The notes beneath the pieces were generated by a model. It was not told the DNA's origin, did no database searches, and worked only from the letters and a program-made list of their open reading frames with translations. 45,120 nucleotides of DNA, from the NCBI GenBank assembly GCA_945902075.1, contig CAMDMA010000029.1, positions 1 to 45,120 of the forward strand, written 5' to 3'. This document shows positions 2,742 through 45,120 of the stretch, one piece after another. The translations under genes were made by a program, and so were the position numbers. Source of the DNA: Candidatus Kuenenia stuttgartensis (GTDB lineage: Bacteria > Planctomycetota > Phycisphaerae > Phycisphaerales > SM1A02). The stretch's first letter is position 1, and each line of letters opens with the position of its first letter.

Positions 2742-2762
2742 TCGCGCGAAACATGAGAAAAA

Positions 2763-5340: not shown

Positions 5341-5355
5341 GTTTTCTGGATTTTT

Positions 5356-7002
5356 ATGCAGACCCATCGCTCCGCAACAATTTCGTCGACGGACTTACCG
5401 CGTGGGCCAAGTGTCTTGTTCCGACTCCGCCGTCGGGTCGAACCGCGGATGCTCGCTTTAGAGATTGGTTCCGCTGCGTTCCGGGCGGTTGGTTGCACGC
5501 GATCTGGTTCGCGCATCGCGATTACGGCAGCAACGGAATCAGCGATTGGTGAGGGCGTGAATCTCGCGGATGTGCTCGAAACTGCTCGAATCAAGCAAAC
5601 GCCCGCGATCCTCGCGCTCGCGCGCGATACCGCGCTTGTCGGAACCACCGAGTTGCCCGCCGAAGACGAGGCGGAATTGCGCGGAATGGCTCGCATCGCT
5701 CTTGCTCGCGACTACACCCCGGACGGCGTGGAGAGTCTCGGCGACTTCCAGTTTGCCCGCCGAGAAGGTGGTAGCGCGACGGTCGTCGTTGCTGCGGCTG
5801 CGCGCACCCAGATTGATCAGGCGCGCAATCGTGGCGACATCAACATTGCGCGTGTTTCGGTTCGAACGCTCGGCACGCTGGTGTTGATCCGAACCTCCGA
5901 CCCACTGCGTCGTGGTACGACATTGGTTGTTGATATCGCAGGTGAGACTGTTGAATTCACTACGGCACGCGATGGCGTGTTGCTGAATTCTCGCGGTGTT
6001 TCAATCGCGGCTGACAGCAGCGAAGTTGTCGCGGCTTCAGTTATCGCGGAGTTTCGTCGGCTCCTCGTGGCGTTACGCGGCATGAGTGAGGGCTTCACAC
6101 TTGATCGCATCGCCGTGTTTGCTGAGGAGAAGGTTTCGATTCTGCTCTCGGTTGAGCTCTCACGCATCGCGTCGTGCGCGGCCTCGCGGTTTGTGTCCCA
6201 TGCGATGGTTGATTTGCCAGGAGTTTCCGCGAGCGAGGCTGTGCGCGGCAGTCTTGAAAAAGAGCTGAATTCAGCGCGTTGCGAATCGTTTCTCTCGTTT
6301 GGATGGCCACTTGCGGGGCTCCTTCTTGAAGATGAAGCCGCACTACGTGGTGACGGTTCCGCGATCGATCTTCTGCATCCAACGCCCTTGATCGATGTCG
6401 GTGCGCGCAGTCGCCAACGTGCTTTGGTTATCGCGGGTGTTGTCGTAATCGCTTCGTTGGCGGGTTGGACGGTCGGCTCACAAAGCTGGAGTGCCCTAGA
6501 GGATCGTCGCGACGAGCTCAAAGACAAGGCGCGCAACGCACTTCCAGATCTTCGCCGTGCAAAGCGCGATGAGTTTCGTTTAAGGCATATCGACGCATAC
6601 GCATCACTCGCGCCCGCCTGGCTTGGACATTTCGAGACCTTGCGCCGCTTTGCGCCAGATCCCAATTCGGTGGTTCTCGATGGGATGACTGCGCAACTGC
6701 TCTCAGCTGAGGTCGAGTACGGAAGCGATGGTGCGTTTTCGACCCGCCCGGAATTGCGGTTTGTGATTGATGGCGAAGCCAAGGACCGTGCGACGGCCGA
6801 CGCGCTACGTGACACGCTTGTGAAGGAGAAGGGGTACACCCTGGGCTCGACAGGCGCGGATGCGCGCGGTGGACGAAGGCTTCCCTCGCCGTTTGCCTAC
6901 ACGCTGCGGACGGGCGATCTCTCGCCACGTGGGATTGATTCCACAAGCCCGGCCTCATCCGGTAAGCCATCCGCAGAGAAGACGGAAGGGAAAGCACCAT
7001 GA
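5356..7002 (+). CDS. gspL: GspL-like assembly protein (PilM-like domain, one TM, PilN-like domain)
   Basis: GspL links the cytoplasmic ATPase GspE to the inner-membrane platform. The N-terminal cytoplasmic part (about residues 30-340) looks like the actin/PilM-type fold: MLALEIGSAAFRAVG near 32-46, LVVDIAGETVEF near 194-205. A single membrane segment lies near 353-373 (ALVIAGVVVIASLAGWTVG), and a periplasmic coiled region starting with ALEDRRDELKDKARNAL is followed by a ferredoxin-like PilN/GspL segment with VVLDGMTAQLLSAEVEY. At 548 residues it is longer than enteric GspL (about 400). ATG 5356 gives a Ser/Thr-rich lead of some 30 residues before the fold. It overlaps the next gene by 4 bp. 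It can equally be described as a PilM-PilN fusion. Confidence 0.82.
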   Translation: MQTHRSATISSTDLPRGPSVLFRLRRRVEPRMLALEIGSAAFRAVGCTRSGSRIAITAATESAIGEGVNLADVLETARIKQTPAILALARDTALVGTTELPAEDEAELRGMARIALARDYTPDGVESLGDFQFARREGGSATVVVAAAARTQIDQARNRGDINIARVSVRTLGTLVLIRTSDPLRRGTTLVVDIAGETVEFTTARDGVLLNSRGVSIAADSSEVVAASVIAEFRRLLVALRGMSEGFTLDRIAVFAEEKVSILLSVELSRIASCAASRFVSHAMVDLPGVSASEAVRGSLEKELNSARCESFLSFGWPLAGLLLEDEAALRGDGSAIDLLHPTPLIDVGARSRQRALVIAGVVVIASLAGWTVGSQSWSALEDRRDELKDKARNALPDLRRAKRDEFRLRHIDAYASLAPAWLGHFETLRRFAPDPNSVVLDGMTAQLLSAEVEYGSDGAFSTRPELRFVIDGEAKDRATADALRDTLVKEKGYTLGSTGADARGGRRLPSPFAYTLRTGDLSPRGIDSTSPASSGKPSAEKTEGKAP

Positions 7003-8042
7003 TTGGCGCGTCCACTCTGCGAAAGTTTCGTCGCCACTGGCTTGCCGCCGCCGTCGGTAGCGCGGCGCTGATCGCGGGTTCGATGGGCTTCGTCGTTGGC
7101 GAGCGGCGACTCGCGGAAGAGCGCATCGTTGCACTTCGCGATATCGATACCTCAATCGCCGTGCTGACCGCCGCCCGCAAAAACCGTGACGAGCGATCGG
7201 CGCTCGACGCCCGAACCCAACGCGTGGTAAACAAAACGCTCGGACCTTCGCTGGAGATTGTGGATAGTGAGGTTCGACGCAGACTCAACCGCGCGTGCGA
7301 AGAATTGGGGATGTCGGAGTTCTCAGTCACGACTGGGACAACGACGATTCGAGGAACCCCCGCCAAGAAAGAGTTCAGGCGACCCGAAGAGCGGCCCTTA
7401 CGCGACGAGCCAGACTTTGTTGAGGTCCAAGCGACCGTTAGCGCAAGTGGTTCCGCCGCAATGGTTTACCAACTTCTTTTTCGCATCGACGTCGAGCCGT
7501 GGACGAAGCGAATTGAGTCGGTTCGGCTCGATCCGACTGCGGATGGCGCCTCAATCAAGACCAACATCAAGCTGACAACCATCTTCTTGCCCGGGCGCGT
7601 CGCTGCGGCTCCGCTGGTGGTCGACCCTCTGGCGCTCGCTTCCGCCCAACGGTTTGCGGAATTGTTTGGGTCAAACCCGTTCCGAATCCCGCCTCCCCCG
7701 ATCGCGCCGGTTGCCGCAGTGGCCAATTCGGCATCAGATGTCGGCCTCAAGCCGCAGTCCCCGACCGCGGTAGGTGCACCACTTCCAGTTACGAATCCCG
7801 CGAGTCCATTCCCTTATGGAGAGTGGCAGTTGACCGGCGTAGTTGAGGGCCCAAGCGGACCCGAGGCCTGGCTCCGTCATCTCCCGTCCGGTGCACTACT
7901 TACATTGAAGCCAGGATCCTCAATTGGCGAGCTCATCTTCCGCTCGGTCGAGTACGATTCTGGAGTATTCGACGGACCCGGCGGAACCTGCCGCGTTCAG
8001 ATTGGAAGCAACCTCACCCAGCGGGCCTCTGCCGCCGGGTGA
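6999..8042 (+). CDS. gspM: GspM/PilO-like protein with C-terminal GspC/PilP-like domain
   Basis: Inner-membrane partner of GspL. After a short cytoplasmic start it has one membrane segment (residues 14-34, LAAAVGSAALIAGSMGFVVG), then a coiled region and a PilO/GspM-type ferredoxin-like domain to about 210 (VEVQATVSASGSAAMVYQLL is the typical strand-helix region). A Pro/Ala-rich linker (about 226-272) leads to a small beta domain at 276-340 (WQLTGVVEGPSGPEAWLRH, then LTLKPGSSIGELIFRSV). That last part resembles the homology region of GspC and the PilP domain, which contact secretin N domains. No separate gspC is seen in the operon, so this gene may supply both functions. The domain calls come from pattern recognition and need profile searches. 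Confidence 0.7.
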   Translation: MIGASTLRKFRRHWLAAAVGSAALIAGSMGFVVGERRLAEERIVALRDIDTSIAVLTAARKNRDERSALDARTQRVVNKTLGPSLEIVDSEVRRRLNRACEELGMSEFSVTTGTTTIRGTPAKKEFRRPEERPLRDEPDFVEVQATVSASGSAAMVYQLLFRIDVEPWTKRIESVRLDPTADGASIKTNIKLTTIFLPGRVAAAPLVVDPLALASAQRFAELFGSNPFRIPPPPIAPVAAVANSASDVGLKPQSPTAVGAPLPVTNPASPFPYGEWQLTGVVEGPSGPEAWLRHLPSGALLTLKPGSSIGELIFRSVEYDSGVFDGPGGTCRVQIGSNLTQRASAAG

Positions 8043-8095
8043 TCTTGTCTTTGCAGGCTCGTATTCGCATCTCTGCGGGTCACGGGTCATGTGGC

Positions 8096-8121
8096 GTCAG
8101 TGTGACTGACACGTCGAGGAG
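8096..8121 (+). promoter_or_regulatory. Small hairpin and strong ribosome binding site ahead of gspD
   Basis: GTCAGT (8096-8101) and ACTGAC (8105-8110) form a perfect 6-bp inverted repeat with a 3-nt loop. Five bases later GAGGAG (8116-8121) sits six bases before ATG 8128, an excellent Shine-Dalgarno that fixes the start of the giant gspD gene. The hairpin could modulate ribosome access; that part is inferred. Confidence 0.55.
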
Positions 8122-8127
8122 CGAACC

Positions 8128-11100
8128 ATGAAGAAGCGAACCGCGCGCAGTGCAGCACTTGTGGTCCCAACGATTGTTGGGCCGATTCTTGCAGCAGCAC
8201 TCGCGGGTCCTGTGGGTGGAGCGCAGGTCGGCGGAACGCAACCCGATGTTGGCCAGGACAGCGCATCGTCGCAGTCATTGCCGACACCGACAGCTGCCCC
8301 CCAATCGACAAGCCCTCGTATTCGCTTCAACTTCAAGGGTCAGACCTACGACCAGATCCTCGACTATTTCAGCCGGGTCTCCGGCTACCCGATCGTGCGC
8401 GAGGTTGACGTGCCGAAGGGCACGGTCGACTACATCTATCCGAAGGAATACACGCTCGATGAAGCGCTGCAGACTCTGAATGTCTTGCTTCAGACACAGA
8501 ACTGCATGCTTCGCGTTGAAAGCGGTCGGATGTTTCTTCAGAAGCTCGATGACATGAAGCGCGAAAATGTGCCGACGTTCGTTGGCACGCTCCCCGCGCA
8601 GGTGACCGACGACACGATCGTGACCGTCGTACTGCCGCTTCTCAATGCGCAGGCAAAGGGTGTCGCGGAACAACTCAAAAACCTCGTCGCAACCTACGGC
8701 TCGGTGACGGCGCTTGAGCAGCAAAACGCCGTGCTCGTTGTTGAAACCGCGGCGCAAGTTCGTCGACTTCAACTCATCATTGACGAGCTCGATCGACAGG
8801 ACGTGGAAAACGTCATTGAGTTCATCCCCATTCGCTATGCGAAGTCTGTCGAGCTGATGAAGAGCCTGCAGGCGCTCATGGGTGAACGGGTTGTTGAATA
8901 TGTCGTAAATCCCGCCGACGGTAAGAAAACGAAGATCGAAGAGAACCGTGTCGCGGGACTCGTCGTCGCTGCCGATGAGCGAACGAATGCGATTGTTGCG
9001 CGCGGCTCGCGTGCAAAGATTGATCAACTGAAGCAGTCGATTGAGTTGCTCGACGTGCCGATCGCCGGGGGCGCGGAGCCAACGGCTTCTGGTGGGCGCG
9101 GGATGAAGACTTTCCAGGTTGCGAAAGTCAAAGCGCCGATTGCAAAGGAGCGGTTGGAGCAGCTTTTTGCCGCATATCCCGCAGATAAGAAACCCACGAT
9201 TGTTGCGTTGCCTGAAGCGGAGCGCGTGACGATTGTCGGTGACCTCGGGTCGATCGATGACGCGGAACGGTTTATCGGTGAAATGGAGGGGTTCGAGCCG
9301 TCGCGGCTGAAGCCGTCGGCCACAGTGCGCGAGCGTCTTCGCGGCGATCGCGCGATCGCTGCACTTGAACTTCAGAGCGCGTCGCCCGAAGCAATTCTTG
9401 TTGCTGCGAAGTCGCTGCTCTCGAAGCGTCAGCAGGACGAAATTTCACTCGTGGCCGGACCCGACGGCCGCACGATACTCGTCGCGGGTGATTCCGCAGA
9501 TATTGCAGGAATTCGCGCGGTGATCGAAACGCTTGATCGTCCGACCAACGTGGATCGCCAGGTGCGCTTGATGCGTGTTGCGAGTCCCGATCCTGAAAAA
9601 TCCGTCGTCCGAGCGCGCGAACTCTACGAACAGCAAACGCCTGCTGCAGACCCTGCCCGAAGCCTTCGCATTGAGCTCGATGCATCGAGCCGTGAGCTTG
9701 TACTTGTAGGCAGTGCGCAGTCAATCCAACGCTTCACTGAACTGCTGAATCAAGTCGATGGAGTTCGAGTCGTTGAGCGAGAGACCCGACGCATCGCCCT
9801 CAATAATGCGTTGCCATCAGCGATTGCGCCTCAGCTGCGCGAACTTGCGAAGCAGGTGCTTGATCCACGTGATGGAACGGCATTCGTCGCTCCAATCGTC
9901 GAGCCGCTCGATGCGACGCGATCGATTCTCGTGAGCGGTTCGCCTGCGGAAGTTTCGGAACTTCAATCTCTCGCCTCCGGACTTGATCGTCCCGCACGGG
10001 ATGCTTTCAGTTTCCGTGTCATTCCCGTACCGGGCCTCGAGGCGCAGAAGCTCGTTGATCGCACAAACCTTGTCTACGCGCAGCTTGCGAAGGGCGGGGA
10101 CGCTGAACTCGAATCGCCAGCGGTTGAGATTGACGCCTCAAGCGGTGCGCTCTTGGTGAGCGGTCGGCGCGAGGCTGTTGCGATGTATGAAAGTGCTATC
10201 GCGCAGGCACGTCAGTTGATGCCACCTACGCGAACCGGGAAGATCGTGCCAATGCGCGCGGCACTCGCTGGCGACGTTGCCACGAAGCTCGCGCCACTCC
10301 TCGCGTCTGCTGTGCCGGTTGATCCATCGCGCACGATCGCGCCAGCGGAAATCAAGGTGATTGAGCCGACCAATGCGCTCTACATCGTCGGCGAATCAGC
10401 GCAGATCGCGTTGGTTGAAAGTTTCATTCGCGACCTTGACGTGGCTGCGCCCGATGCGCTTCCACCACTGCGACTGCTTCAACTTCGCGGCGGTGATGCC
10501 GTGCAAGTCGCCGCAATGCTCGCGCAACGGTACGACACGCGCGCGCCAGAGTTGCGTCGATCGCAGCCAGTTCGAGTCGAAAGTGACGCGACGACCAACA
10601 CGCTCGTTGTCACAGCGCATCCCGCAGTGTTCGAGGAAATTCGCACACTCGTCGACGATATGAATCGTGCGGGCGATGCTGGAACCGGCCCGACGCGCGA
10701 GACTTTTGTCGTCGCGCTGAAAACCGCAAAGGCAGCAGAGCTTGCGATCGCGCTTGACCGCCTTTACCCAGCCCCGCCTGTTCCACTGGATGCGCGCGGG
10801 CGCCCGCTCCCGCATCTTCAGAAGCAAAAAGAGGTGTTTGTCGCAGCCGATCCAACGACGAACTCGCTCATAGTTGAGGCGCCGGCGGAGCGCCGCGCGA
10901 GTTTTGAAGAGCTCGTGTCCACTCTTGATCGCACACCACTTCCGCCGCTTGCGGAACTGCGCACCTATCGCGTTGAAAAGGGAGATATTGAGCGCATTGC
11001 CCAGAGTTTGCGGGATCTCGCCGCGCGTGGCATGCTCGCCAAGCCGGGCCTTGACGGCGCGAAACCTGTTGATGTGCTCATTCAACCTGAACCCGCGAGC

Positions 11101-14100
11101 CGAACGCTCATTGTTGCGGGTGACGCGACAACATTTGAGAAGACCGAGCAACTCCTGAAGCAACTACAGGCGATTCCCGCAAAGCGTGGGGTTCGTGTCG
11201 TCGATGTTGGTGCAAGTGATCCAACACAACTCGTTGCAAAGGCGATGAAGCTCGCTGCGCTCGAGCCTGTGGAGGGCGCGGCGCCGCCAGTCGAGTTGGA
11301 GATCGACATTCCAAACGGCATGATCGTCGCAAGCGGCGAGGAAGAACCGCTCGCGCGTTTTGCAGACGCCTGTCGGCAACTGCTCGCAGCGACCGCTCCT
11401 GGCGCCGATGTCCGTGTGATTCCTCTCGCACACGCGAAGGCCGTTGATGCGAAGGCTTCTATTGAAGGCCTCGCCGCGAGTCGACTCGGGCAAGCGGCAG
11501 GCTTTGCGCGCGAACCCGCGATTGAGGTGCTCGAGAAAACGAACTCTCTGCTTGTTGCTGCCGATGGGCGCCAACACGAACTTTTAGCCGTGCTCGTCAA
11601 AAATCTTGATGTGCCGTCGGGCGCGACGCCGCCGATGCGCATTCTTCAGCTTCGAACGGCCGACGCGTCCACGCTCGCGGCAGCCCTGAATGCGCAGTTC
11701 GCGCAACGCTCGCCCGACGAAAAGGGTGCGAAGCCAGTGCAGATCACCGCTGAGCCGCAAACAAATGCGCTTATCGTTGCAGCGCATCCTGATTTGCTGC
11801 CCGAAATTCAGCAAGTCATCGAGGATCTCAACGGCTCGACACGGCAATCAGCGACGGATCGTGAGATTCGAATCTTCTCTCTGAAAGTCGCGCGAGCCGC
11901 GGAACTCGCGAAGACCATCGATGAGATGTATCCGGCCCAGCCGATTCCTGTCGATCCACGCGGTCGTGCGCGACCGGAACTGCAGCCGCCGCGGGATGTG
12001 GTCGTGCGCGCCGATGCGCAGACCAACTCGCTCATCGTGGACGCACCAGTTGCGCGCATGGCAGGTTTCGACAAACTCGTCGAGCAGCTCGATCGCGCGC
12101 AGGCGACGCCCGAAGCAGAGATCCGCACCTGGCGCGTCTCCGATGCAAACATTGAAACATTGGCAAAGACCATTCGTGAGCTCGCGACAGCTGGGCAACT
12201 CGGCAGCGAGGGTTCGTCGACGGTGGTGAGTTTTGAGCCGGTGTCAAAAACGCTCGTTGTCAGCGGTGCACCCAGCGTGTTTGCAAAGGTCGAGCAAATC
12301 GTGCGTGGCGTTGAAGGCGCGGCGCAGCCTGCGACGACGCTTCGGGTGTTCAAACTCAAAGTCGCCCGCGCAGAAACGCTCGCGCCGCTCGTTCGGAGTG
12401 CGCTCGAGGGTCGGCTCGCGCAGATTGAGCCGACGCTCGCAGGAAAGTCGGAACGGGTGCTTGACGTCGCAGCAGACAAACGTTCCAACGCGCTGATCGT
12501 GAGCGCACCAGACGCCCTCATGCCCGTCGTGGAAGAACTTGTGCGGCAGCTTGATGACGGGAGCGCGAGCGCGGGCGATCCAGTCGTGCGCGTGCGACCG
12601 CTCTCTTACGCAGATGCAACGCAGGTGTCGACGAGCCTCACGCAAGCACTCGCAGCTGCCACAAATCCGACGACGCGCGAACCGCTTTCAGTCAAAGTTA
12701 TTCCTGCTACTGGCGCAAATGCGCTGCTTCTCGTGGGTCCGGTCTCCGATCTTGACGAGGCTGAGAAACTTGTTGCGCCGCTCGATGAGCGGCCGGCGCT
12801 CGACTCCGTAGATGCGAAAACGTTTCCGCTCGTGAATGCAGACTGCGCGCGTATCGCACCGCTTGTACAGCGTTTGCTCGCCGATCAACAGGAAACTGAC
12901 CCGCGCATCGTGTTGGAGCGGATGCGCCGGAATCGCGGCCAAGCCGACTCGACGCCGCCTGTACGCGTTGAAGCCGACACGCGTACGAATGCACTCATTG
13001 TCTCAGGTGCAGCGCGCATCATGACGGTTGCTGAAGGACTCATCAAACAACTCGACCGCGAGGGCGATGTCTCAGCGCGGACGTGGGCGGTCTTCACCCC
13101 AACGAAGGCGGTGGTCGCGAATCTTGTGGACGAGGCTCGGAGAATTCTCGACGCGACCAATGCGTCGGCGCTCGCGCGTGTTGAACTCTCGGCTTTGCCG
13201 CAATCTGGCACGATTGTGATTGTCGGAACATCTGAGGGCTCGGCCCAGGCGCGCGCGCTGCTTGCTGAACTCGACGAGAAAGCATTTGCTGCACCTGCCG
13301 CGGATTTCCGTGTGGTGCAACTTCGTCATGTGGCGCCTGATGTTGTCGTGAGCGCACTCAACGCAGTGCTCCTCGATCGCTCGCGTTGGCCTTCACAACT
13401 TCTCGCAGCGGCGAAGGCTGGTGCGCCTGTGGTTGAACCGAAGGTCGTGGGCGATGTACTGAACGCGCGTGTTGTCGTGACGGCGCCAACTGAACTTATG
13501 TCGGTCGCTTCGGAGGTAATCGCGCAACTGGACAAGCCCCGCGATGGGGATGCGCCGACTGAGATTCGGGTGTATCCGCTCACGCAGGCAGGAGCCGCGG
13601 ATGTTGCGAAGGCTGTAGAGCAAGCACTTTCCGCCCGAGCGGCCACGCAGCCGAATCGTCGGCGGGCGTCTGTGAGTGCAGAGCCTACGAGTAACTCGCT
13701 CGTTGTTGCTGCGGATCCAGCGCAGCTCGACGAGGTTGACGCTGTGATTCGCGCGATTGATGTGCGTGGGCCTCGCGATGCAGCCCGCGTGCGCACGGTG
13801 TTTCTTAAGAATGCGCGCGCGGGCCAAATGGCTCCGCTCGTTGAGCAACTGCTCGCTGGAGAAGAGCGGCGCGCCGACCGCGCTCGACCGACAGCGGCTG
13901 GCGTGCCAGCGAATGAGCCGCCGCTGCGCGTGATCGCAGACGAGCGCATCAACGCAGTCGTCATTTCTGCAACACCAAGCGCGCTTGATGCAGCGGAAGA
14001 AATGCTCGAACAACTTGATGTTGCGCCGGGTAAGGAGACGGATCGAACCGTTCGCGTGCTATCGCTGCGCAATGCAGATGCTGCGGAAATCGCCAAGAGT

Positions 14101-17100
14101 CTCGTTGATTTGTTTGAAACAGACGATGGGACCGAAACGCCACCTGTCGTACGGGTCAATGTCGCAAGTAACAGCCTGCTGGTCCGTGCAACAGAGAAGC
14201 AATTTTCGACGATAGAAGGCATTGTGTCGAAGCTCGACGGAGCGTCGATTGCAACGTCACGGACTCTGCGGTCGGTCCCGCTTGATCCGACAAAGGGCGA
14301 CGCCGAAGAGATGGCGCGACTTCTCCGGCGTTTGATGGAAAATTCCGATGGTGATGTCGAGGTGATCTCGGTCGAAGAGTTACTCAAGCGCTACGAGCCA
14401 GAGAAAAAGCCCGCCTCAGGAACACAAGGTCGGCGGTTCGACCTTGATGGATTACCGACGCTCACATCGTCGATGGTCGAGCCGACATGGCCACCACGAC
14501 TCCCGGCGCGCCTTGCTTTTGTTGCGCAGATTTTTGCGCAGTCGCCCTCGGCCGCTGAGTCGCAATCAACGCCAAACGTCTCGTCACCACCGATTCCAGA
14601 GTCGCTCATTCCGAAAGACGGAGAACTCGGCGCAGATACACAAGGCGTAACGGTTGCAGTCGACAAGGAATCCAACTCGCTCCTCCTGCTCGGATCGCCT
14701 CGTGAGATTGAACGGGCAATGCGACTCATTGAGCAGGCATCGAAATCATTACCGGGTGAGGGCTCGCGTATTCGCGCGATTAAGCTTCCCGCATCGAGCG
14801 ATCCAACTGCGCTCGCATCCGTGGTCGTCGGTGCACTTGCGCGTATGACTCCCGCTGGCGGCGCGATCGGCGATCTCGCCAAGCGTGTGGCCATCGTTGC
14901 GGATCCGGATACAAGATCGTTACTTGTTGTCGCGAGTGATCGCGACTTCGATGCGGTTGGACAGCTCGTCGCGACGCTCGCGCGTGGCCAACAAACGGAG
15001 ACTGTTGTTGTCAAGAGCTATGTGCTCCGCAATGCAGGTGCCGAACGTATCGCTGAGGCGTTGCGGTCAGTGGTCACACAAGGTGGCGGCACGAAGTTGC
15101 GCGCACTTGCGGTTACGCTCGCAGGTGATGCGCCCGGCACGAACGGCGAGATCACGTTTGATCCGACGAAACTCCGAGTCATTGCGGAGAAGGGTGCGAA
15201 CGCAGTCACTGTGGTTGGTTCACCTGAAGCAATCGCGTTCGCCGACCGATTCATCGCTTTCACCGACCGTGAAGAGCGCTCGATCGCGCCAGAAATGCGG
15301 TTGCTTCCGCTTCGCTACGCGCGCGCCTCCGAACTTGCGCGCACGCTACAGCTGATTTTTGCGGCACGTGGACGAGCACTTTCCCAGCAGGGGATTGTGG
15401 TGTCGATGCCGGAATTCTCCTCCGATGAGCGAACCAATACGCTCGTGGTTTCGGGCGGCGCGGAGGTCGCACCCGAGATCGAGCGGATCGCAAGCAAGCT
15501 CGATGAGCCATCAGCGAGCGGGAAAGCTCCCCTAGAGACAATTCCCCTCACGCATGCTCGTCCAACAGAGGTCGCTGCGACTGTAGAAAAACTCGTGGTC
15601 TCCGCAGACCCAGCGCGCAAAGAGCGCACGCAGATCGTCGCCGATGATGCAGCTGGGGTCATGATTGTGCGGGCAGAGCCGCTCGTGCTTGAAGAGATTC
15701 GCGCAATCGCGAAAGAGGTCGATCGTGTTGGCGCACGCCAATTCGCAATTCGCCCGATCAAACTTGAGCGCGCTGATGCGCAGCGCGTTTCGGTTGCGTT
15801 GCAGAAACTCTTTGATGATCGCGCGCAGATCACGGGCGCATCTCGGCAGCGCGGGCAGCGAGTTGTCTCCATCGTCGGTGACTCGCGAAGTGCAACGGTT
15901 TTTGTCGCGGCGAGTGACGACGATTTCAAAGAAATCTCTGAACTCGTTCAGGGCTTTGACGCGCCCGAAGTTGCGCCGTCGTACGAATTCAAGGTGTATT
16001 CATTGAAGTTTGCCCGTGCAGGCGAACTCGCGCGCACAGTGGAGCAGATGCTCAGCGAAATGGGCGAAGCAAGCGCTGAGGATGCTGCGACGGTTCGCGG
16101 CGATGAGAAGCGTAATGCTCTCATCGTTGTTGGTAGAGGTGATCGTTTTGCGCTCGTTGGTGAGATTGTTTCGACACTTGATGTTGAGCCGACCGCGGGC
16201 GACTCGCGCAGTGTGAAGACGTATGACACGCGCTTCGGTGATCTCGAGCAGGTCGCGGCGTTGGTGCGCGATACTCTTGGCGAGCGGCCGCAGCGGCCAT
16301 GGGAAACGCAGATTGCAGTTGCCGGTTCGCGCGTGATTCCTGTTCTGCGCGCGGGTCAAATCGTTGTACGCGCGACTGACGCACAGCATGCTGAGGTCAA
16401 AACGCTTCTTGATTCTCTTGCGAAAACCCTGGTTCAAGAGGGTCGCGAAACGTCGGTCATTCCTGTTGAGTTCGCATCACCTGCTGAACTCGCGCAGACC
16501 TTGAGAACGTTCCTTGACGATCGCGCTGCCGGTGCAGGCGCCGGTTCGACGTCGGCCACTATTGTCCCCTCTGCATCGGGTGGCGCACTACTCGTCGCTG
16601 GAACTGCGGAGGAAGTGGCGACTGTGCGCGACCTTGTTTCCCGCATCGACCAGCCACAGTCTGGAGGCGATCGTCAGAGCGACATCGTGGTTCTTCGAAA
16701 GGGCACCGCTGCTGAAATCGCACGTATGGTCGCTGATCAGTTTCGTGGCCGTGGTGGAGCGCAGGGTGTGACGGTGACGCCTGATGTGCGAACAAACAGC
16801 ATCCTCGTTAGCGCGCCCGCATCGCAATTCGTACAGGTTCGCGCGCTGATCGAGCGGCTTGATGCGCCAGCGAGTGCAGAGGAAACGATCATCCGCACAT
16901 TCGCACTCAAATCAGCGAAGGCGGATGAAGCCGTACGCGTACTCACACAATCATTGCAGCTTGATCCGAAGGGGCGCACGCAGGGTATTGCTGTCAAAAT
17001 CGACCCGAATGCTGCTGCGGTGCAGGTGAATGCACGCATCGTCGCAGATCGTCGGTCAAACGCATTGGTTGTGACGGCGACCGCGGAAAGTCTTCCCGTG

Positions 17101-20100
17101 ATCGAGAGTCTCCTGGCGCAACTCGATGACGCTCCAGCGAAGAGTCCGGTTGAGTTTCGCATCATCGATCTGAAGCATGCGATCGCGAGTGATGTTGCAT
17201 CGACGCTCGAGCGACTCGTTTCTGGAGACGCGTCGAAGGTTGAAGGTGCGGAGGCTCCGCGGATCGAGGCCGATACCGCGCAGAATCGTCTCATCGTTGC
17301 GGCTGGTCCGGAACAGTTCGCGACAATTCTTGAAGTTGTAAAAGCTGTCGATGTGCCGAGTGAGCGCAAGCGCGTGACCGATTTTGTTCCACTCGCCCAT
17401 GCGAAAGCGCGCGGCGTCGAAGAGGCGCTCGGTTATTTCTACGGACGATTCGCCATCGACGCGGATTCGCCAGCAAAGCAATCGGTGCGGATCGTCGGTG
17501 ACGAAGCAACCAACTCGCTCGTCATTTCTGCCGATGAGTCAGAGTGGCCAGCGATTCGTGAGCTCGTCGCGAAACTCGATAGTGAGCAGTACGACGGCTC
17601 GCGACAGTTGCGGGTTATCGCGATGAAGCACGCCGACGCGAAGAGTGTGGCAACTGCAATCAATGAAGCGTTCCGTCTCACGGCGAACCAAACCGCGCAG
17701 CCAGCTCCGGCGAAGCAGGGCGAGCCAGCAGCCCAACCTGCTGTTGTGACGCAAGCGAAGCCCGAAGAGATCGTGAGCGCAAGTGCAGACGAATTCTCGA
17801 ACAACATCGTGATCGCTGCCAGTCCGGCGAACATGAAGAAAATCGAGGCGATCATTGAGCAACTTGATCAGCCTGACTTTGCGCAACTCCCGCCGCCTCG
17901 GCTGATCGAGGTTCGTTACGGAAATCCCGAGCAACTTGCGCGTGCGATTGAGCGGGTGTTCGGCCCTGGCCGTGATGCTGGTCGCGATCGCGGGTTGCGC
18001 ATCGTTGGTGACTCGACGAGTAACGCACTCATCGTCCGCGCAAGCGAAGAAGACTTCGCAAAGATTGCCGCGATTGCTGAGGCGCTGCAACAACAGGCTA
18101 CGGAGCAGGGGCTTCAAGTCCACCTCATTCGGCTCAAGAGCGCACCAGCCGCCCGTGTAGCGGGCGCGATCCGTGAGGCATTCGCCCAGCGCGCGCGTCA
18201 AGCTGGGCTCTCGCTTTCGATTCAAGTTGACACGGTCGCCAATGGACTCGTCATCGCGTCCACCGGACCGATCTTTGATGAGATTAAGTCGATCGTCGAA
18301 CAGATGGATGCGCTCGCTCCGGACTCAACCAAGGGCATCTTCATCATCGATCTGGTGAACACGTCGCCGGAGGCAGCAAAGAAGATCATCGAAGAGATCG
18401 GGCTTGATCGTCCGCAGCCGCTTGACAGTGTCTCGAAGGTGATTTCTGAACCATTGAAGGTTTCGGTCGCGAGCGGCCGAAGCGCGCTCGTCATCGTTGC
18501 GAACCCCGCTGATCGCGACACGATCGTGTCGCTCCTTAAGTCCATCGATACCGATCCGCCGATGGCCGATGCTGATGTGCGCATCGTGCGAATGAAAAAT
18601 GCAGCGGCAACGAGCATTGCGGCGACGCTGAATGCAATGGTCGCCCAGTCGGTTGCTGCGGTGCAAGGGGGAACGGCGAAACAGGGCGAACTCGCACGCG
18701 CGCTTCAAGAGCAAGTTCGTCGCCTACAGATTCAACCAGACGGCGCGGCGGCGCCGATCGCACTCGATCTTCAGAAGCCGATCAAAATTCTTGCAGACGC
18801 AACGAGCAATGCACTCGTCCTTTCGTCGACTTCCGACAACGTGCGCGCCCTTGAAGAGGCCGCGAAGCTCTTTGACACGCTGCCAGTCACAGACGCAGCA
18901 ACTGTGCGCGTTTTTCCGCTTGAGAACATTCAGGCAACGCAGTTCGCGCGCATCGTGCGCGAGCTCTTCACGCAGGGGAAGCAACTCGGCGTGCTGCAAG
19001 GGACGCAGGTGAAGGCTCAAGCCGGTGGCGCAACGGGCGAAGCACTCGCGCAGGATGTCGCGATGTCAGTTGATGATCGAACCAACACCGTCGTGGTGGC
19101 TGGAAAGGAGGAGGCGGTTGCACTCGTAGAAGTACTGCGCGATCGTCTTGACTCGCAGGTGTCCGTCGGATGGATCGAACCGCGTATCGTCAAACTTCAA
19201 TACGCGGATGCTCGTGAGATCGCGGAGATGCTTCGCACGGTACTGGTTGAGGGCTCAACGAAACTTCCCGAGAGTGGTCCGTTGCAGAAGCAGGTTGGTC
19301 GGATTCGTATGGCGCGGGCGGGCGATGGAACGGTGCCGCCAACCGTCCTTGAGAGCGACATCTTTGCACCACTCACCCAGTTGGTGATCCGCCCGGATAT
19401 GACGACGAATTCGCTCGTACTCGTTGGGAGTACGCAGAACCTCGAAATTGTTGGCGCGTTGATTCAGCAGCTCGACACGGAGGCGGCTGCGCCTGGCGCT
19501 CTTGTACGCATTTATCCCCTTGAGAATGCAAGTGCGTCGCGCATTGGCCCACTGGTTGTGCAGCTCTTTGAGCAGCAGTTCGCGGCGAAGACCATTCGCG
19601 CCGAGGACCGTGTGCGTGTCGTTCCGGATGAGCGGCTCAATTCTCTTGTGGTGTCGACAAGTGTTCGGAGCTTTGCGGTACTCGATGAATTGCTCAAGAG
19701 TCTTGATCAGAAGGTGACACCCGACATTCGCGAGATTCGCACGATTGATCTGAAGCATGCAAGCGCACCAAGGCTCGCGGTCATCCTTCAGCGGATGATG
19801 GATGCGCGTGTGGATCGTCTTAAGAAAGCAAGTCCGGAGACAGCGGATCTCGAGCGCGCGACCATCGCTTCAGATGAGCGCACCAATCAACTACTTGTTG
19901 CAGCGGGTGCTGACGCATTTGATGTGCTTCAGTCGCTCATCAACGATCTCGATACCGCGGAGCTCCTCGAGGAGTCCGGTGTTGAAGTTGTTCCGGTGAA
20001 GAAAGCAAATCTTGATCGGCTCTCTGGGGCAATCGCGCAGATCCTCAATCGGCGCTTCGCAGAACTGACGCCCGAAGTCGCGAAGCGCGTCAAGCCGCTG

Positions 20101-22512
20101 GTCATTGCTGATCCACGAACTTCGAGTTTGCTTGTCGCTGGTGGACCGGAGGATGCGGCGCTCGTGCGGCAGATCGTAGCGAAGCTCGACGAGATCCCTT
20201 CGAATCCAGCGATTGGCGTTCATGTGCTTCCGCTTGCCGCTGCGCGGGCTGAGGCTATCTCGCCCAGGCTCCAGCAGTTGATGCGCGATCGAGCCACCTC
20301 GCTTGGTGTTTCGCAGACGCCGTCGGATGCCGTGTCCATCGCTCCCGACGTCGCGTCGAACTCGCTCATCGTGGCCGCAAGTGAAGAGAATCTTGAAGTG
20401 GTGAAAGGGCTCGTCGATCTCCTCGCAAAGGCCGCGCAGGACCAGCTTGCGGATAAGCCATTCGAGATCATTGTTCTCGCGAAGACCACGGCACCCGACA
20501 TGGCGCGCATGCTTGATGAGATGTATGTCGCTGAGGAAAATCGTCGTCGCGGCGACAATACGGTTCAGGTTTCGTCTGACTCTCGACTCAATGCAATCAT
20601 TGCAAGTGGCCCCGAGGCTGACATCGCGGCGATCCGTCGGCTTGTCGCTCAGCTCGACGGAGCGAAGCCACAAGCAGTCGTCGAGATTAAGTACATCCCT
20701 TTGCAGGGCGCGAACGTGCAGGAAACGGTCGGACTCATTCAGAGTGTGCTGTCTGGGAATTCGCTTGCCGGTCGCAATGGCCAACAGGCGACGATTCTCA
20801 AGTACCTGAAGGAGATTGAGGGCGGATCCTCCGATGGCGAGGTTGAAATGGAGATTTCGACCGCGACTCGTCAGTCCATCTCGCTCGTACCCGATGTTCG
20901 AACAAACACCGTGATCGTACGTGCGCCTAGGGATTCGATGGCGCTCATTGAGCGCATGATTCGCGATCTCGACACCTCGACAAGTGGCGCGCAAGACATT
21001 CGAATTTTCAAGTTGGTCAATGCCGACGCTGACTCCATGGGCCGGCTTCTCAAGGAACTCTTCAATCTTCGCCAATCCGGCAATCTCTATGTGCTGAAGC
21101 CGCGCGAAGAGGCGTCGGATGCAACTACCACCGCCGCATCAACGCGCAACGCGGAGCCTGTGCTCGCGAGCGAGGGCACGCTGGGTTCTGATCTCACGCT
21201 TGTCCCCGACGATCGTCAGCAACTCTCGATCACCGTCGACGATCGCACGAACTCGCTACTTGTCTCGGGCACGCCAAATTATCTTGAGCTCGTTGAGAAG
21301 GTGGTGAAGGAACTTGATCTTCAGCCAGCGAACGAGCGTGATACCTTTGTGTACAAACTGAAGAACGCCACAGCCGCGGATGTTGCGCGCGTCGTGAATG
21401 AGTTTGTGAGCGAGGATCAGCGAAAGATCCTGCAGACACTTTCCGCAGACGAACTCCCGAGCGCGACCAAACTGCTCGAGCGCGAGGTGACGGTCGTCGG
21501 CGATTTGAAGTCGAACACTGTGTTGGTAAACGCGAGCCCCAAGTATCTTGAGAAAGTTCGCACGATCATCGGTGAACTCGACATCGATCCACCGCAGGTG
21601 TTGATTCAGGTTTTGCTTGCAGAGGTCTCGCTTGACTCAAGTGAATCAATTGGCCCAGAGTTTGGTCGCGCACGCTTTGGCGATTTCACCGCCGCTGCAG
21701 GCATGGGCAACATCAAGGGCATCGGTGGGCGTACAGGAAATCAGCTGCTTGGATCTCTGTTCTCAAATTCGGGAACGCCGAACGTCGCGATTGGTTCAGA
21801 AGATTTCGAACTCCTTATCAATGCGCTCGCTTCACAGAGTCGTGTGCAGGTGTTGTCCAATCCGTCAGTGATGGTCGAGAACAACTCTGAGGGCTTCATC
21901 CAAGTTGGTGAAACCGTGCGGCTTCCGGACGCGGTGAGTTTCTCAAGCGCGGGGCAACAATCGAGCGTGACGCCGGAAGACATCGGCATTCTGTTGCGAG
22001 TGACACCCTCGATCAATCCTGATGGCTTTGTGCGCATGGCTATTGAGCCAGAGATTTCGCGCTTGTCGCTTCAAACCACGCAGATTTCAGAGAACTTCAA
22101 CTCTCCGGTTGTGACCCGTCGTCGTGCCACCACGACGGTGACAGTGAAGGACGGACAGACAGTGGTGATCGGCGGCTTGATCAGCGACCGTTTCGAGCGC
22201 ATTGATCAGAAGATTCCGCTGCTTGGCGACATCCCAATTTTGGGCGCGCTGTTTCGGCAGTTCCGCGAGAACGCGTCGAAGACTGAACTTCTCATTGTGC
22301 TTACCCCGCATGTCGTTCGCTCGCCATCTCAGGGCGGTGGCGACACGGCTGCTGCACTCTCCGAAGCGGCGCTGCGCAAACTCACGCTCCCGCCAGAACT
22401 TCTCGAGCAGATCCGGAAGGGCGAGTTGGAGGGCGCATCGATGAACGTCGGAGGAAGCGCAAAACCTGTTGCCGTTCCTGAAGACACCGATGCATCTGAG
22501 GTACCGAAGTGA
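8128..22512 (+). CDS. gspD: Giant type II secretin GspD with about 52 N1-type domains
   Basis: Outer-membrane secretin of the T2SS, but 4794 residues long against about 650-750 for usual GspD. Residues 1-31 look like a signal peptide. An N0-like domain spans about 65-141 (FKGQTYDQILDYFSRVSGYP). From about 161 to 4488 runs an unbroken chain of about 52 units, mean length near 83 residues, each with the N1/Secretin_N pattern: a lead strand (like RVIPLKHA), a helix, a variable loop, the strand motif D-x-x-(T/S)-N-(S/A)-L-(I/L)-V-x-A, and a closing helix ending in LD. The core (about 4490-4735) is a normal secretin beta-barrel domain: VLIQVLLAEVSLD, VQVLSNPSVMVENN, GETVRLPDAV, VIGGLISD, PLLGDIPILGALF, LLIVLTPHVVRS. 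The frame is clean, with no internal stop and with uniform codon use. A Ser/Pro-rich linker interrupts the chain near 2075-2175. The stop overlaps the lipoprotein start by 4 bp. Confidence 0.95.
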   Translation: MKKRTARSAALVVPTIVGPILAAALAGPVGGAQVGGTQPDVGQDSASSQSLPTPTAAPQSTSPRIRFNFKGQTYDQILDYFSRVSGYPIVREVDVPKGTVDYIYPKEYTLDEALQTLNVLLQTQNCMLRVESGRMFLQKLDDMKRENVPTFVGTLPAQVTDDTIVTVVLPLLNAQAKGVAEQLKNLVATYGSVTALEQQNAVLVVETAAQVRRLQLIIDELDRQDVENVIEFIPIRYAKSVELMKSLQALMGERVVEYVVNPADGKKTKIEENRVAGLVVAADERTNAIVARGSRAKIDQLKQSIELLDVPIAGGAEPTASGGRGMKTFQVAKVKAPIAKERLEQLFAAYPADKKPTIVALPEAERVTIVGDLGSIDDAERFIGEMEGFEPSRLKPSATVRERLRGDRAIAALELQSASPEAILVAAKSLLSKRQQDEISLVAGPDGRTILVAGDSADIAGIRAVIETLDRPTNVDRQVRLMRVASPDPEKSVVRARELYEQQTPAADPARSLRIELDASSRELVLVGSAQSIQRFTELLNQVDGVRVVERETRRIALNNALPSAIAPQLRELAKQVLDPRDGTAFVAPIVEPLDATRSILVSGSPAEVSELQSLASGLDRPARDAFSFRVIPVPGLEAQKLVDRTNLVYAQLAKGGDAELESPAVEIDASSGALLVSGRREAVAMYESAIAQARQLMPPTRTGKIVPMRAALAGDVATKLAPLLASAVPVDPSRTIAPAEIKVIEPTNALYIVGESAQIALVESFIRDLDVAAPDALPPLRLLQLRGGDAVQVAAMLAQRYDTRAPELRRSQPVRVESDATTNTLVVTAHPAVFEEIRTLVDDMNRAGDAGTGPTRETFVVALKTAKAAELAIALDRLYPAPPVPLDARGRPLPHLQKQKEVFVAADPTTNSLIVEAPAERRASFEELVSTLDRTPLPPLAELRTYRVEKGDIERIAQSLRDLAARGMLAKPGLDGAKPVDVLIQPEPASRTLIVAGDATTFEKTEQLLKQLQAIPAKRGVRVVDVGASDPTQLVAKAMKLAALEPVEGAAPPVELEIDIPNGMIVASGEEEPLARFADACRQLLAATAPGADVRVIPLAHAKAVDAKASIEGLAASRLGQAAGFAREPAIEVLEKTNSLLVAADGRQHELLAVLVKNLDVPSGATPPMRILQLRTADASTLAAALNAQFAQRSPDEKGAKPVQITAEPQTNALIVAAHPDLLPEIQQVIEDLNGSTRQSATDREIRIFSLKVARAAELAKTIDEMYPAQPIPVDPRGRARPELQPPRDVVVRADAQTNSLIVDAPVARMAGFDKLVEQLDRAQATPEAEIRTWRVSDANIETLAKTIRELATAGQLGSEGSSTVVSFEPVSKTLVVSGAPSVFAKVEQIVRGVEGAAQPATTLRVFKLKVARAETLAPLVRSALEGRLAQIEPTLAGKSERVLDVAADKRSNALIVSAPDALMPVVEELVRQLDDGSASAGDPVVRVRPLSYADATQVSTSLTQALAAATNPTTREPLSVKVIPATGANALLLVGPVSDLDEAEKLVAPLDERPALDSVDAKTFPLVNADCARIAPLVQRLLADQQETDPRIVLERMRRNRGQADSTPPVRVEADTRTNALIVSGAARIMTVAEGLIKQLDREGDVSARTWAVFTPTKAVVANLVDEARRILDATNASALARVELSALPQSGTIVIVGTSEGSAQARALLAELDEKAFAAPAADFRVVQLRHVAPDVVVSALNAVLLDRSRWPSQLLAAAKAGAPVVEPKVVGDVLNARVVVTAPTELMSVASEVIAQLDKPRDGDAPTEIRVYPLTQAGAADVAKAVEQALSARAATQPNRRRASVSAEPTSNSLVVAADPAQLDEVDAVIRAIDVRGPRDAARVRTVFLKNARAGQMAPLVEQLLAGEERRADRARPTAAGVPANEPPLRVIADERINAVVISATPSALDAAEEMLEQLDVAPGKETDRTVRVLSLRNADAAEIAKSLVDLFETDDGTETPPVVRVNVASNSLLVRATEKQFSTIEGIVSKLDGASIATSRTLRSVPLDPTKGDAEEMARLLRRLMENSDGDVEVISVEELLKRYEPEKKPASGTQGRRFDLDGLPTLTSSMVEPTWPPRLPARLAFVAQIFAQSPSAAESQSTPNVSSPPIPESLIPKDGELGADTQGVTVAVDKESNSLLLLGSPREIERAMRLIEQASKSLPGEGSRIRAIKLPASSDPTALASVVVGALARMTPAGGAIGDLAKRVAIVADPDTRSLLVVASDRDFDAVGQLVATLARGQQTETVVVKSYVLRNAGAERIAEALRSVVTQGGGTKLRALAVTLAGDAPGTNGEITFDPTKLRVIAEKGANAVTVVGSPEAIAFADRFIAFTDREERSIAPEMRLLPLRYARASELARTLQLIFAARGRALSQQGIVVSMPEFSSDERTNTLVVSGGAEVAPEIERIASKLDEPSASGKAPLETIPLTHARPTEVAATVEKLVVSADPARKERTQIVADDAAGVMIVRAEPLVLEEIRAIAKEVDRVGARQFAIRPIKLERADAQRVSVALQKLFDDRAQITGASRQRGQRVVSIVGDSRSATVFVAASDDDFKEISELVQGFDAPEVAPSYEFKVYSLKFARAGELARTVEQMLSEMGEASAEDAATVRGDEKRNALIVVGRGDRFALVGEIVSTLDVEPTAGDSRSVKTYDTRFGDLEQVAALVRDTLGERPQRPWETQIAVAGSRVIPVLRAGQIVVRATDAQHAEVKTLLDSLAKTLVQEGRETSVIPVEFASPAELAQTLRTFLDDRAAGAGAGSTSATIVPSASGGALLVAGTAEEVATVRDLVSRIDQPQSGGDRQSDIVVLRKGTAAEIARMVADQFRGRGGAQGVTVTPDVRTNSILVSAPASQFVQVRALIERLDAPASAEETIIRTFALKSAKADEAVRVLTQSLQLDPKGRTQGIAVKIDPNAAAVQVNARIVADRRSNALVVTATAESLPVIESLLAQLDDAPAKSPVEFRIIDLKHAIASDVASTLERLVSGDASKVEGAEAPRIEADTAQNRLIVAAGPEQFATILEVVKAVDVPSERKRVTDFVPLAHAKARGVEEALGYFYGRFAIDADSPAKQSVRIVGDEATNSLVISADESEWPAIRELVAKLDSEQYDGSRQLRVIAMKHADAKSVATAINEAFRLTANQTAQPAPAKQGEPAAQPAVVTQAKPEEIVSASADEFSNNIVIAASPANMKKIEAIIEQLDQPDFAQLPPPRLIEVRYGNPEQLARAIERVFGPGRDAGRDRGLRIVGDSTSNALIVRASEEDFAKIAAIAEALQQQATEQGLQVHLIRLKSAPAARVAGAIREAFAQRARQAGLSLSIQVDTVANGLVIASTGPIFDEIKSIVEQMDALAPDSTKGIFIIDLVNTSPEAAKKIIEEIGLDRPQPLDSVSKVISEPLKVSVASGRSALVIVANPADRDTIVSLLKSIDTDPPMADADVRIVRMKNAAATSIAATLNAMVAQSVAAVQGGTAKQGELARALQEQVRRLQIQPDGAAAPIALDLQKPIKILADATSNALVLSSTSDNVRALEEAAKLFDTLPVTDAATVRVFPLENIQATQFARIVRELFTQGKQLGVLQGTQVKAQAGGATGEALAQDVAMSVDDRTNTVVVAGKEEAVALVEVLRDRLDSQVSVGWIEPRIVKLQYADAREIAEMLRTVLVEGSTKLPESGPLQKQVGRIRMARAGDGTVPPTVLESDIFAPLTQLVIRPDMTTNSLVLVGSTQNLEIVGALIQQLDTEAAAPGALVRIYPLENASASRIGPLVVQLFEQQFAAKTIRAEDRVRVVPDERLNSLVVSTSVRSFAVLDELLKSLDQKVTPDIREIRTIDLKHASAPRLAVILQRMMDARVDRLKKASPETADLERATIASDERTNQLLVAAGADAFDVLQSLINDLDTAELLEESGVEVVPVKKANLDRLSGAIAQILNRRFAELTPEVAKRVKPLVIADPRTSSLLVAGGPEDAALVRQIVAKLDEIPSNPAIGVHVLPLAAARAEAISPRLQQLMRDRATSLGVSQTPSDAVSIAPDVASNSLIVAASEENLEVVKGLVDLLAKAAQDQLADKPFEIIVLAKTTAPDMARMLDEMYVAEENRRRGDNTVQVSSDSRLNAIIASGPEADIAAIRRLVAQLDGAKPQAVVEIKYIPLQGANVQETVGLIQSVLSGNSLAGRNGQQATILKYLKEIEGGSSDGEVEMEISTATRQSISLVPDVRTNTVIVRAPRDSMALIERMIRDLDTSTSGAQDIRIFKLVNADADSMGRLLKELFNLRQSGNLYVLKPREEASDATTTAASTRNAEPVLASEGTLGSDLTLVPDDRQQLSITVDDRTNSLLVSGTPNYLELVEKVVKELDLQPANERDTFVYKLKNATAADVARVVNEFVSEDQRKILQTLSADELPSATKLLEREVTVVGDLKSNTVLVNASPKYLEKVRTIIGELDIDPPQVLIQVLLAEVSLDSSESIGPEFGRARFGDFTAAAGMGNIKGIGGRTGNQLLGSLFSNSGTPNVAIGSEDFELLINALASQSRVQVLSNPSVMVENNSEGFIQVGETVRLPDAVSFSSAGQQSSVTPEDIGILLRVTPSINPDGFVRMAIEPEISRLSLQTTQISENFNSPVVTRRRATTTVTVKDGQTVVIGGLISDRFERIDQKIPLLGDIPILGALFRQFRENASKTELLIVLTPHVVRSPSQGGGDTAAALSEAALRKLTLPPELLEQIRKGELEGASMNVGGSAKPVAVPEDTDASEVPK
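8605..21593 (+). repeat. Array of about 52 diverged N1-type domain repeats in gspD
   Basis: I counted the units by the recurring strand motif (for example TNALIV, TNSLIV, SNSLVV, SNALIV, TNTVIV) and the terminal LD that closes each unit. Pairwise identity is low for most neighbours, so this is an old protein-level repeat rather than a DNA satellite. Some sets are closer: the four-unit block at about 10232-11185 resembles the block at about 11407-12330 unit by unit. The count could shift by one or two because a few units (for example those at about 9100-9300, 16210-16430 and 14280-14740) are degenerate or carry insertions. Confidence 0.85.
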
Positions 22513-23069
22513 GGCGCCTGCGCAGGGTTCGATTGTTGATAGTTGCGGTGCTTGGACTTGCTTCGTGTCAGACCACCGTCACAACATCGGACGGTACGCG
22601 CGCTGCGCCGAAGCCTCGCGAATCGCCGGTAGCGCCCGTGGGCACCATGCCGAATGCAATCGCGATTACCTTTGCGCCCAAGCCTGCGGATACCGACGGC
22701 AATCTGTTGCCCGACTCACTGCAAGTTACGGCTTATCTCTTTGCGCGCCCACATCCTGCGCCGCTCTTTGCCGATGGATCATTTCACTTTTCAATCTATC
22801 GATTGGGGCAGGCAGCGAGTGCTGAATCGGACGGTGGCGAACCGCTGAGAACTTGGGAGTTCTCCGCCGAATCCGTAGCGCTCGCGCGGTCGATGGCACT
22901 CGCCGGACCGTGTCACGAGTTTGTTCTGTCGCTACTCGCGAATCGTGGAATCGACTCGTTGCCGGTCGAGAGTGTCGACTTGATCGCCTGGTTTGAGCCA
23001 AGCGACGGCTCCGCGAAGGTGTGGCTGCGTGGAGTCCGCGGGGTCCAGTTTCCAAAACCGGAGCGCTGA
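22509..23069 (+). CDS. Small lipoprotein downstream of gspD, candidate secretin pilotin
   Basis: A 186-residue predicted lipoprotein. Basic residues at 2-8 precede a hydrophobic stretch and a lipobox L17-A18-S19-C20. The next residue is Gln, not Asp, which by the enterobacterial Lol rule would favour the outer membrane. The rest shows alternating strand-like segments (NAIAITFAPKPADTDGN, SLQVTAYLFARP, HFSIYRL, SVDLIAWFEPSDGSAKVWL) and no family I recognise. It starts with GTG 22509, which overlaps the gspD stop (GTGA), so it is translationally coupled to the secretin and is the last gene of the operon. A pilotin-like role (targeting or stabilising GspD in the outer membrane) is inferred from lipidation and position, not from similarity to GspS. 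Confidence 0.8.
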   Translation: MRRLRRVRLLIVAVLGLASCQTTVTTSDGTRAAPKPRESPVAPVGTMPNAIAITFAPKPADTDGNLLPDSLQVTAYLFARPHPAPLFADGSFHFSIYRLGQAASAESDGGEPLRTWEFSAESVALARSMALAGPCHEFVLSLLANRGIDSLPVESVDLIAWFEPSDGSAKVWLRGVRGVQFPKPER

Positions 23070-28579: not shown

Positions 28580-28626
28580 CGTGGTTTCCGTCGTGTATGA
28601 GTGTGTTGATTCGGGGCCGCGATCAC

Positions 28627-29715: not shown

Positions 29716-29730
29716 GATCGCGGCTCCTCT

Positions 29731-30540: not shown

Positions 30541-30585
30541 GGTGAATTCCGTGTCGTGTCGAGTGAAGTCGGGTTATTCCAACGC

Positions 30586-45015: not shown

Positions 45016-45120
45016 CTCAGGCGCGGCTGCGGCCGCTTCCTCTGGAGTTGTCCGCACGGTTGGTGTGTGACTCAGGCGCGGCTGCGGCCGCTTCCTCTGG
45101 AGTTGTCCGCACGGTTGGTG
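44965..45120 (+). repeat. 55-bp tandem repeat covering the carB stop and running to the window end
   Basis: Copies at 44965-45019, 45020-45074 and a partial third at 45075-45120 appear identical apart from the first flanking base. The unit contains a GCGGCCGC palindrome and, in the first copy, the end of carB with its TGA stop at 45013-45015. The array is cut by the window edge, so its real length is unknown. Confidence 0.9.

Follow-up and report, generated by a model that had tools for sequence, protein, structure and literature searches.

Few bacterial machines have been studied as thoroughly as secretins, and the number of their N rings has been treated as small. In known systems the N0 domain contacts the inner-membrane platform, and each secretin ring adds ~3 nm. 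In the open-access literature searched, neither a secretin bearing tens of N domains nor a split secretin was found described. The longest secretin found described is the PilQ of Thermus thermophilus, with six rings (PMC5745081, in excerpt); that excerpt describes its N0–N5 stack as crossing most of a wide periplasm and counts this PilQ among the largest systems yet characterised (PMC5745081). Here we analyze a window, meaning the whole stretch of DNA under study (contig C29, 45,120 bases), from a source genome of 3.31 Mb (97% complete, 70 contigs), in which a single secretin gene encodes about 52 N1-type domains.

The gene lies at 8128–22512 on the forward strand and runs from an ATG start through a stop-free frame of 4,794 amino acids (511 kDa). 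Its product begins with a signal peptide (by eye) and an N0-like domain (8323–8577, forward; residues ~66–150, bounds by eye), continues through two long arrays of N1-type domains, and ends in a secretin core (21823–22320, forward), where Pfam Secretin (PF00263) matches residues 4566–4731 at E = 3.8e-48. The N0-like domain is best seen across relatives: PF21305 (type_II_gspD_N0) matches at E ≤ 0.1 in 24 of 28 N-termini (the window and 27 relatives, the alignment omitting L048 and L060, two of the 29 relatives, whose excised stretch missed the region), with a best value of 1.5e-7, and it matches the window N-terminus alone at E = 0.0073, under the Pfam cut-off. A profile search of the PDB for N0 reaches PilQ at E = 0.11 only, and a PDB search with the window N-terminus alone gave no match.

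Pfam Secretin_N (PF03958) matches the protein in 45 stretches (1355 bits), and a profile built by iteration on this protein finds 53 contiguous matches over residues 158–4492. Two of the 53 are partial, at 2041–2075 (model positions 3–35) and 2131–2211 (model positions 25–80), and are taken as halves of a single interrupted N domain; the domain count is therefore 52, with 51 whole and one interrupted. The same profile finds three matches in each of three canonical GspD proteins of the same order (L115, L123, L125), and the count is thereby calibrated. Module A consists of 24 complete N1-type domains plus the interrupted domain's strand-helix half (8599–14400, forward; residues ~158–2091), and module B carries the strand-strand-helix half and 27 whole domains (14647–21603, forward; residues ~2174–4492). 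Neighboring domains abut, the median gap between aligned ends being −3 and the largest 12, besides the 55 of the interrupted domain. Two predicted segments (1,010 and 1,019 amino acids) show a repeating strand-helix-strand-strand-helix secondary structure, at moderate confidence (pLDDT 66 and 74, pTM 0.35 and 0.31) and with unreliable inter-domain geometry. An earlier note, made from the letters alone, had described a single clean frame of 4794 residues with an N0-like domain, about 52 N1 units, and a secretin core; the profile matches agree with it, and the Pfam count and segment predictions that it had proposed turn up the repeated fold and no mere handful of N domains. The bisected N domain and the split genes described below had escaped it, and what is new here is the colinearity of the array, its spread, and a two-module build with an interrupted N domain.

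By sequence comparison the protein is most likely a GspD-type secretin of a type II secretion system (T2SS), as the earlier note had also held. The best solved relative is GspD 6i1x (E = 2.8e-49 over residues 4368–4735), and Foldseek with a predicted segment finds GspD 5zdh (E = 2.5e-22); an inner segment finds N-domain structures of GspD and XcpQ (E = 1.7e-9 and 1.1e-6). GspD entries rank above PilQ, the best of which is 9sh1, and a type IV pilus secretin (PilQ) was rejected as GspD ranks first (2.8e-49 vs 7.4e-28). Upstream, all on the forward strand, are gspF, the T2SS inner-membrane platform gene (27–1217; PF00482 E = 1.9e-53; TIGR02120 289 bits, below its 424-bit cut-off), and gspG, for the major pseudopilin (1335–1844; PF08334 E = 5.8e-25; TIGR01710 99.6 bits, over cut-off). 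Minor pseudopilin genes follow in the GspH position (1866–2741, TTG start as listed; PF07963 N_methyl E = 1.2e-5; TIGR01708 7e-5, below cut-off), the GspI position (2763–3197; TIGR01707 E = 0.0049, below cut-off, and gene order), and the GspJ position (3194–3853; N_methyl E = 0.0003, below cut-off, and gene order). The GspK-position gene (3850–5340) is placed by gene order only, being without a Pfam or NCBIfam family match; next come a GspL/PilM-like gene (5356–7002; TIGR01175 pilM E = 0.0015, below cut-off) and a GspM-position gene (6999–8042), which has a conserved C-terminal domain, is without a Pfam or NCBIfam family, and is present in 18 of the 22 related genomes, at 21 of 27 loci, some of which overlap. 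An idea formed by eye, that the C-terminus of this last product is HR/PilP-like, found no search support.

Directly downstream of the giant gene is a lipoprotein gene (22509–23069, forward; lipobox seen by eye), starting with a GTG that overlaps the giant gene's end. It is without a Pfam or NCBIfam family, similar sequence occurs in 20 of 22 related genomes, and its product may be a candidate pilotin of a new family. The earlier note's "complete gsp operon" is borne out in part: F, G, three short pilin-like genes, the K-, L- and M-position genes, D, and the lipoprotein gene are in the window, and E is absent from it. The GspC model PF11356, a narrow one with matches in 2 of 14 control genomes, has no match in the source genome. 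There are 11 T2SSE-type (GspE) matches in the source genome, one of which reaches base 12 of contig C56 and is consistent with a contig adjoining the window start. In G492 a T2SSE gene lies upstream of F and G, and in G009, a single contig, F, G, and the next frames precede the giant gene in the same order. At the other end of the window, a perfect 55-bp tandem repeat (44965–45120, 2.8 copies) lies at the contig end within and beyond a carB-like frame (named by eye) and is probably an assembly end artefact.

The giant gene is not an artefact; it is old and under selection. DNA repeats of at least 40 nt within it form one family whose copies are 61%–71% identical to the reference copy, and copies no more than 71% identical at the DNA level mean neither a recent expansion nor a collapsed repeat. 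Against the same-genus relative L025, codon positions 1, 2, and 3 differ at 0.18, 0.12, and 0.56 of sites, and fourfold sites at 0.56, differences that show purifying selection. Recent tandem expansion is also rejected at the protein level, where internal copies average 28% identity (stretches of at least 60 amino acids) and orthologous positions match best. A count of 53 units recurs in seven of 38 relatives compared, and in these seven 52–53 of the 53 domains best-match the same index, so the array is old. Identity to the window domains is 73%–74% in two same-index relatives of the same genus (L027, L028) and 45%–48% in the other five (L029, L038, L051, L056, L057). Most other relatives among the 38 keep the order with shifted numbering and missing blocks, and colinearity is weaker in other families (L046 and L047 of f2, 20/53 and 19/53; L048 of f4, 4/53). 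Internal similarity gives no clear fixed or short super-period beyond one block duplication; the commonest best-partner offset across relatives is 5, which in the window is due to an old duplication of the block 9–11/14–16.

An assembly chimera, a collapsed repeat, or a decayed gene would be the trivial explanation, and its chance is vanishingly small. In its favor, the contig comes from a 70-contig assembly and the arrays of L066 and L114 show frame breaks; against it, long relatives occur in many genomes, including single-contig ones, DNA identity between copies is low, and selection is purifying. For the family as a whole, artefact or decay is refuted by the relatives, the low copy identity, and the purifying selection, and the earlier note's judgment that this is no decayed copy stands. 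The frame breaks themselves (one in L066; in L114, from G447, an array in several frames of 782 [cut], 1,710, and 1,519 amino acids with 10, 19, and 13 units) may be sequencing or frame errors or real splits, and neither locus was counted as a split gene.

The earlier note had suggested a search of related genomes for the same architecture. Among 151 genomes searched, secretin frames of at least 2,000 amino acids occur in at least 31 of the 45 sampled genera of the family, and long relatives occur also in other families, both of the order and of the class, which is probably Phycisphaerae, among the planctomycetes. Five single-contig genomes (G009, G032, G245, G504, G476) contain the giant. Fused relatives without a contig-end cut have 30–56 units within the own family, 37–50 in f2, f3, f4, and f94 of the same order, and from 21 up to at least 63 in additional families of the class. 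The largest member seen, L127/L158 of G508, has an open frame of 6,169 amino acids and at least 63 units, L127 being cut by the fetched stretch. Very long open frames also lie antisense to the giant gene in L026 and other loci, the one in L026 reaching 4,361 codons before the contig ends, and these are probably a codon-usage effect.

The junction of the two modules consists of a strand-helix half, a long insertion (14401–14646, forward; residues ~2092–2173, bounds partly by eye), and a strand-strand-helix half, so that one N domain and its profile match are split between helix 1 and strand 2. Loops of 30–41 residues interrupt four other domains of the protein, and the junction is distinctive by its bisected profile match and by the gene split found there in relatives, not by loop length. 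Within the insertion is a short hydrophobic stretch (14500–14562, forward; residues 2125–2145) that is signal-peptide-like, weakly so in the window. Of 39 sequences, 32 yielded a parsed linker and 7 did not; compared with shuffles, junction hydrophobicity reaches p ≤ 0.05 in 24 of these linkers, with p = 0.09 for the window.

In genus g29 (G082, G028, G060) there are two genes with the break at the junction, the second gene having a signal peptide (by eye) and, in one case, an ATGA overlap with the first. The first gene, read complete only in G082, ends at model positions 2–35 or 2–36 (10.5–14.5 bits), and the second begins at 26–31. In f105 (G492, G509, G524; a fourth genome, G529, was left out of the sample) both genes are complete, and both products start with a signal peptide as judged by eye. 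The pair comprises an upstream gene of 2,742–3,062 amino acids with 22–24 units and without a core, and a downstream gene of 1,676–1,843 amino acids with 12–16 units and the core. The downstream genes begin at model positions 39–42, and the half domain that ends the upstream genes scores weakly (1.3 and 1.9 bits) or not at all. G484 (f104), whose first gene is cut off, resembles the f105 split. The form of the f1 and f105 junctions suggests that they may be the same by descent; the number of domains from junction to core is 24–28 in f1 vs 12–16 in f105.

On the core tree the split state requires three changes, two of them forced by well-supported branches. Origin by simple fusion of two old genes is not favored by the core trees, in which the split genus nests inside the fused family. 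The short canonical GspD proteins branch among giant lineages, in a weakly resolved part of the tree. Two Secretin_N arrays in which Pfam detects no secretin core were also seen, L062 (G302, 3774–11876, reverse strand; 2,701 amino acids, 15–19 matches) and L151 (G317, 4809–9353, reverse strand; 1,515 amino acids, seven matches). Coming from other families or classes of the phylum, they resemble module A alone as free-standing N-domain arrays and would be in keeping with giants that arose from separate array genes.

A first rule for signal-peptide-like stretches gave 23 matches, one of them (L133) away from junctions, and missed the window. A second rule, applied to the 387 long uncovered segments of 61 fused proteins, picks out 40 of them and none in 28 of the proteins. 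Within the own family, where junctions were defined by orthology to the window and the counts are non-independent as the proteins are related, the second rule picks out 20 of 35 junction segments (34 fused proteins) vs 3 of 182 other long segments. Outside the family, 13 more proteins have a signal-peptide-like stretch in the presumed junction loop, these loops having been chosen partly for that stretch and so giving no independent test. The strongest junction stretches are those of L129–L132 (family f96), and that of L127 is low-complexity. In L129, L130, and L131 a second hydrophobic, signal-peptide-like stretch follows unit 7, which suggests a possible third module.

One version of events would have the pre-protein cut at the internal signal peptide, its halves rejoining through the bisected N domain to form a very long channel; two-gene relatives would then make the same two parts directly. 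The contrast between 20 of 35 junctions and 3 of 182 segments elsewhere, and the strong cases in f96, favor such cleavage, and it is weakened because 14 of the 34 own-family fused proteins, the window included, fail the second rule at the junction. We consider this version unlikely, at about one chance in several.

The reading that we prefer, and hold at roughly even chances, is a GspD with ~52 N1-type domains whose two modules form stacked rings and a very long periplasmic channel. We infer that 12–15 chains would assemble as in other secretins and that the consecutive, linker-free domains would stack as rings, making a channel well over 100 nm long if each ring contributed ~3 nm. N0 would face the inner-membrane platform, the core would sit in the outer membrane, and the channel would carry cargo and pseudopilus across an enlarged planctomycete periplasm. 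Module A (N0 and ~25 domains) would meet module B (~27 domains and the core) inside one N domain. In fused forms A and B are joined by the long insertion; in the two-gene relatives, most simply, their half domains would complete each other, and this joint would be non-covalent because A and B are separate exported proteins. It counts against this reading that domain numbers run from 21 to at least 63 among fused forms of the class, so that the channel would have no fixed length.

A less ambitious structure would be a normal secretin with a long tether, in which ring formation is confined to the core and the final few N domains and the rest hangs or folds back, its domains binding, for example, cargo, peptidoglycan, or envelope-bound enzymes. 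We regard this as rather improbable, if well short of remote. In its favor, domain number varies widely and the other secretins of the genome are short. Against three same-genus relatives, identity is 0.47–0.79 for domains 28–37, lower than at either end (0.68–0.96 for domains 1–5 and 0.70–0.89 for 40–53), and the units absent from shorter relatives are interior (by eye). Yet neighboring domains abut, unlike beads on a string, positions are individually kept among relatives of equal count, and N0 is retained at the far end.

Many domains per chain might instead pack helically or build wide rings, a chamber or basket serving, for example, as a polymer store, and this we think quite doubtful. 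A 15-mer would be ~7.7 MDa, 15 being the number of chains in the top GspD structures, and crateriform envelope structures are described in Planctopirus and Gemmata in an excerpt of PMC5394234; the internal similarity, without a clear fixed super-period, speaks against such packing.

A channel of this length raises the matter of periplasm width. A greatly enlarged periplasm is presented as possible in planctomycetes in the same excerpt, for Planctopirus, Gemmata, and Rhodopirellula, which belong to other groups than this class (PMC5394234). The other secretins of the source genome have 4, 1, and 0 N domains, its TolC-family frames measure 434–719 amino acids, and a uniformly wide periplasm is therefore not favored. 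Near the T2SS operon, at 27803–31440 of the window on the reverse strand, are flagellar flgH, flgA, and two flgF/flgG-type rod genes; rod and L-ring genes suggest an outer membrane within rod reach, at least locally. Short secretins, TolC frames, and flagellar genes together point to a periplasm that is normally wide in some places at least, and it is possible that a long channel stands at local enlargements or that the array is partly flexible.

Nine non-giant secretins of the family were profiled, of which seven have 4 N units and the others 1 and 0; one of the seven belongs to the source genome, the other six to genomes for which no giant is listed. The pseudopilin family T2SSG was found in 29 of 30 chosen genomes of the order, and in all 12 of the family genomes without a giant among the matches listed (G001, G002, G004, G005, G007, G008, G013, G017, G018, G025, G039, and G042). 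In eight of these (G002, G004, G007, G008, G013, G018, G025, and G042) it lies 8.9–9.9 kb from a secretin frame of 882–1,076 amino acids. The source genome thus carries, besides the giant, a short secretin of the 4-unit type (989 amino acids, contig C31), ~10 kb from a weak T2SSG match.

Tens of N domains in one chain raise the question of the distance between outer and inner membranes, and of whether a secretin can act as ruler or conduit; they give a genetic handle on the long debate over the enlarged planctomycete periplasm. An envelope-spanning channel might be built in two halves, as the bisected domain and the split genes suggest. Very long single frames are not foreign to the phylum: the genome table of the Mucisphaera paper has a count of genes longer than 15 kb, and a 13,493-amino-acid product is mentioned in the text (PMC8882080, in excerpt). 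The giant secretin is likewise a very long single frame, and at 14.4 kb falls below the 15-kb limit of that excerpt, which may be a reason why such genes went unremarked.

Among described secretins, GspD, PulD, XcpQ, and EpsD share with the giant the secretin core, N1-type domains, an N0-like start, and a T2SS operon. Elsewhere in the phylum, L150, L152, L153, L154, and L157 combine a core with 4–8 N domains in frames of 1,302–1,430 amino acids. The PilQ of T. thermophilus, a type IV pilus secretin with six rings in the excerpted description, has about one-ninth of the giant's domain number, and 52 stacked rings, if formed, would be far longer than any secretin found described. Canonical GspD of the same order has three N1-type domains, whereas the giant has about 52, one of them interrupted, and in some relatives takes a two-gene form.
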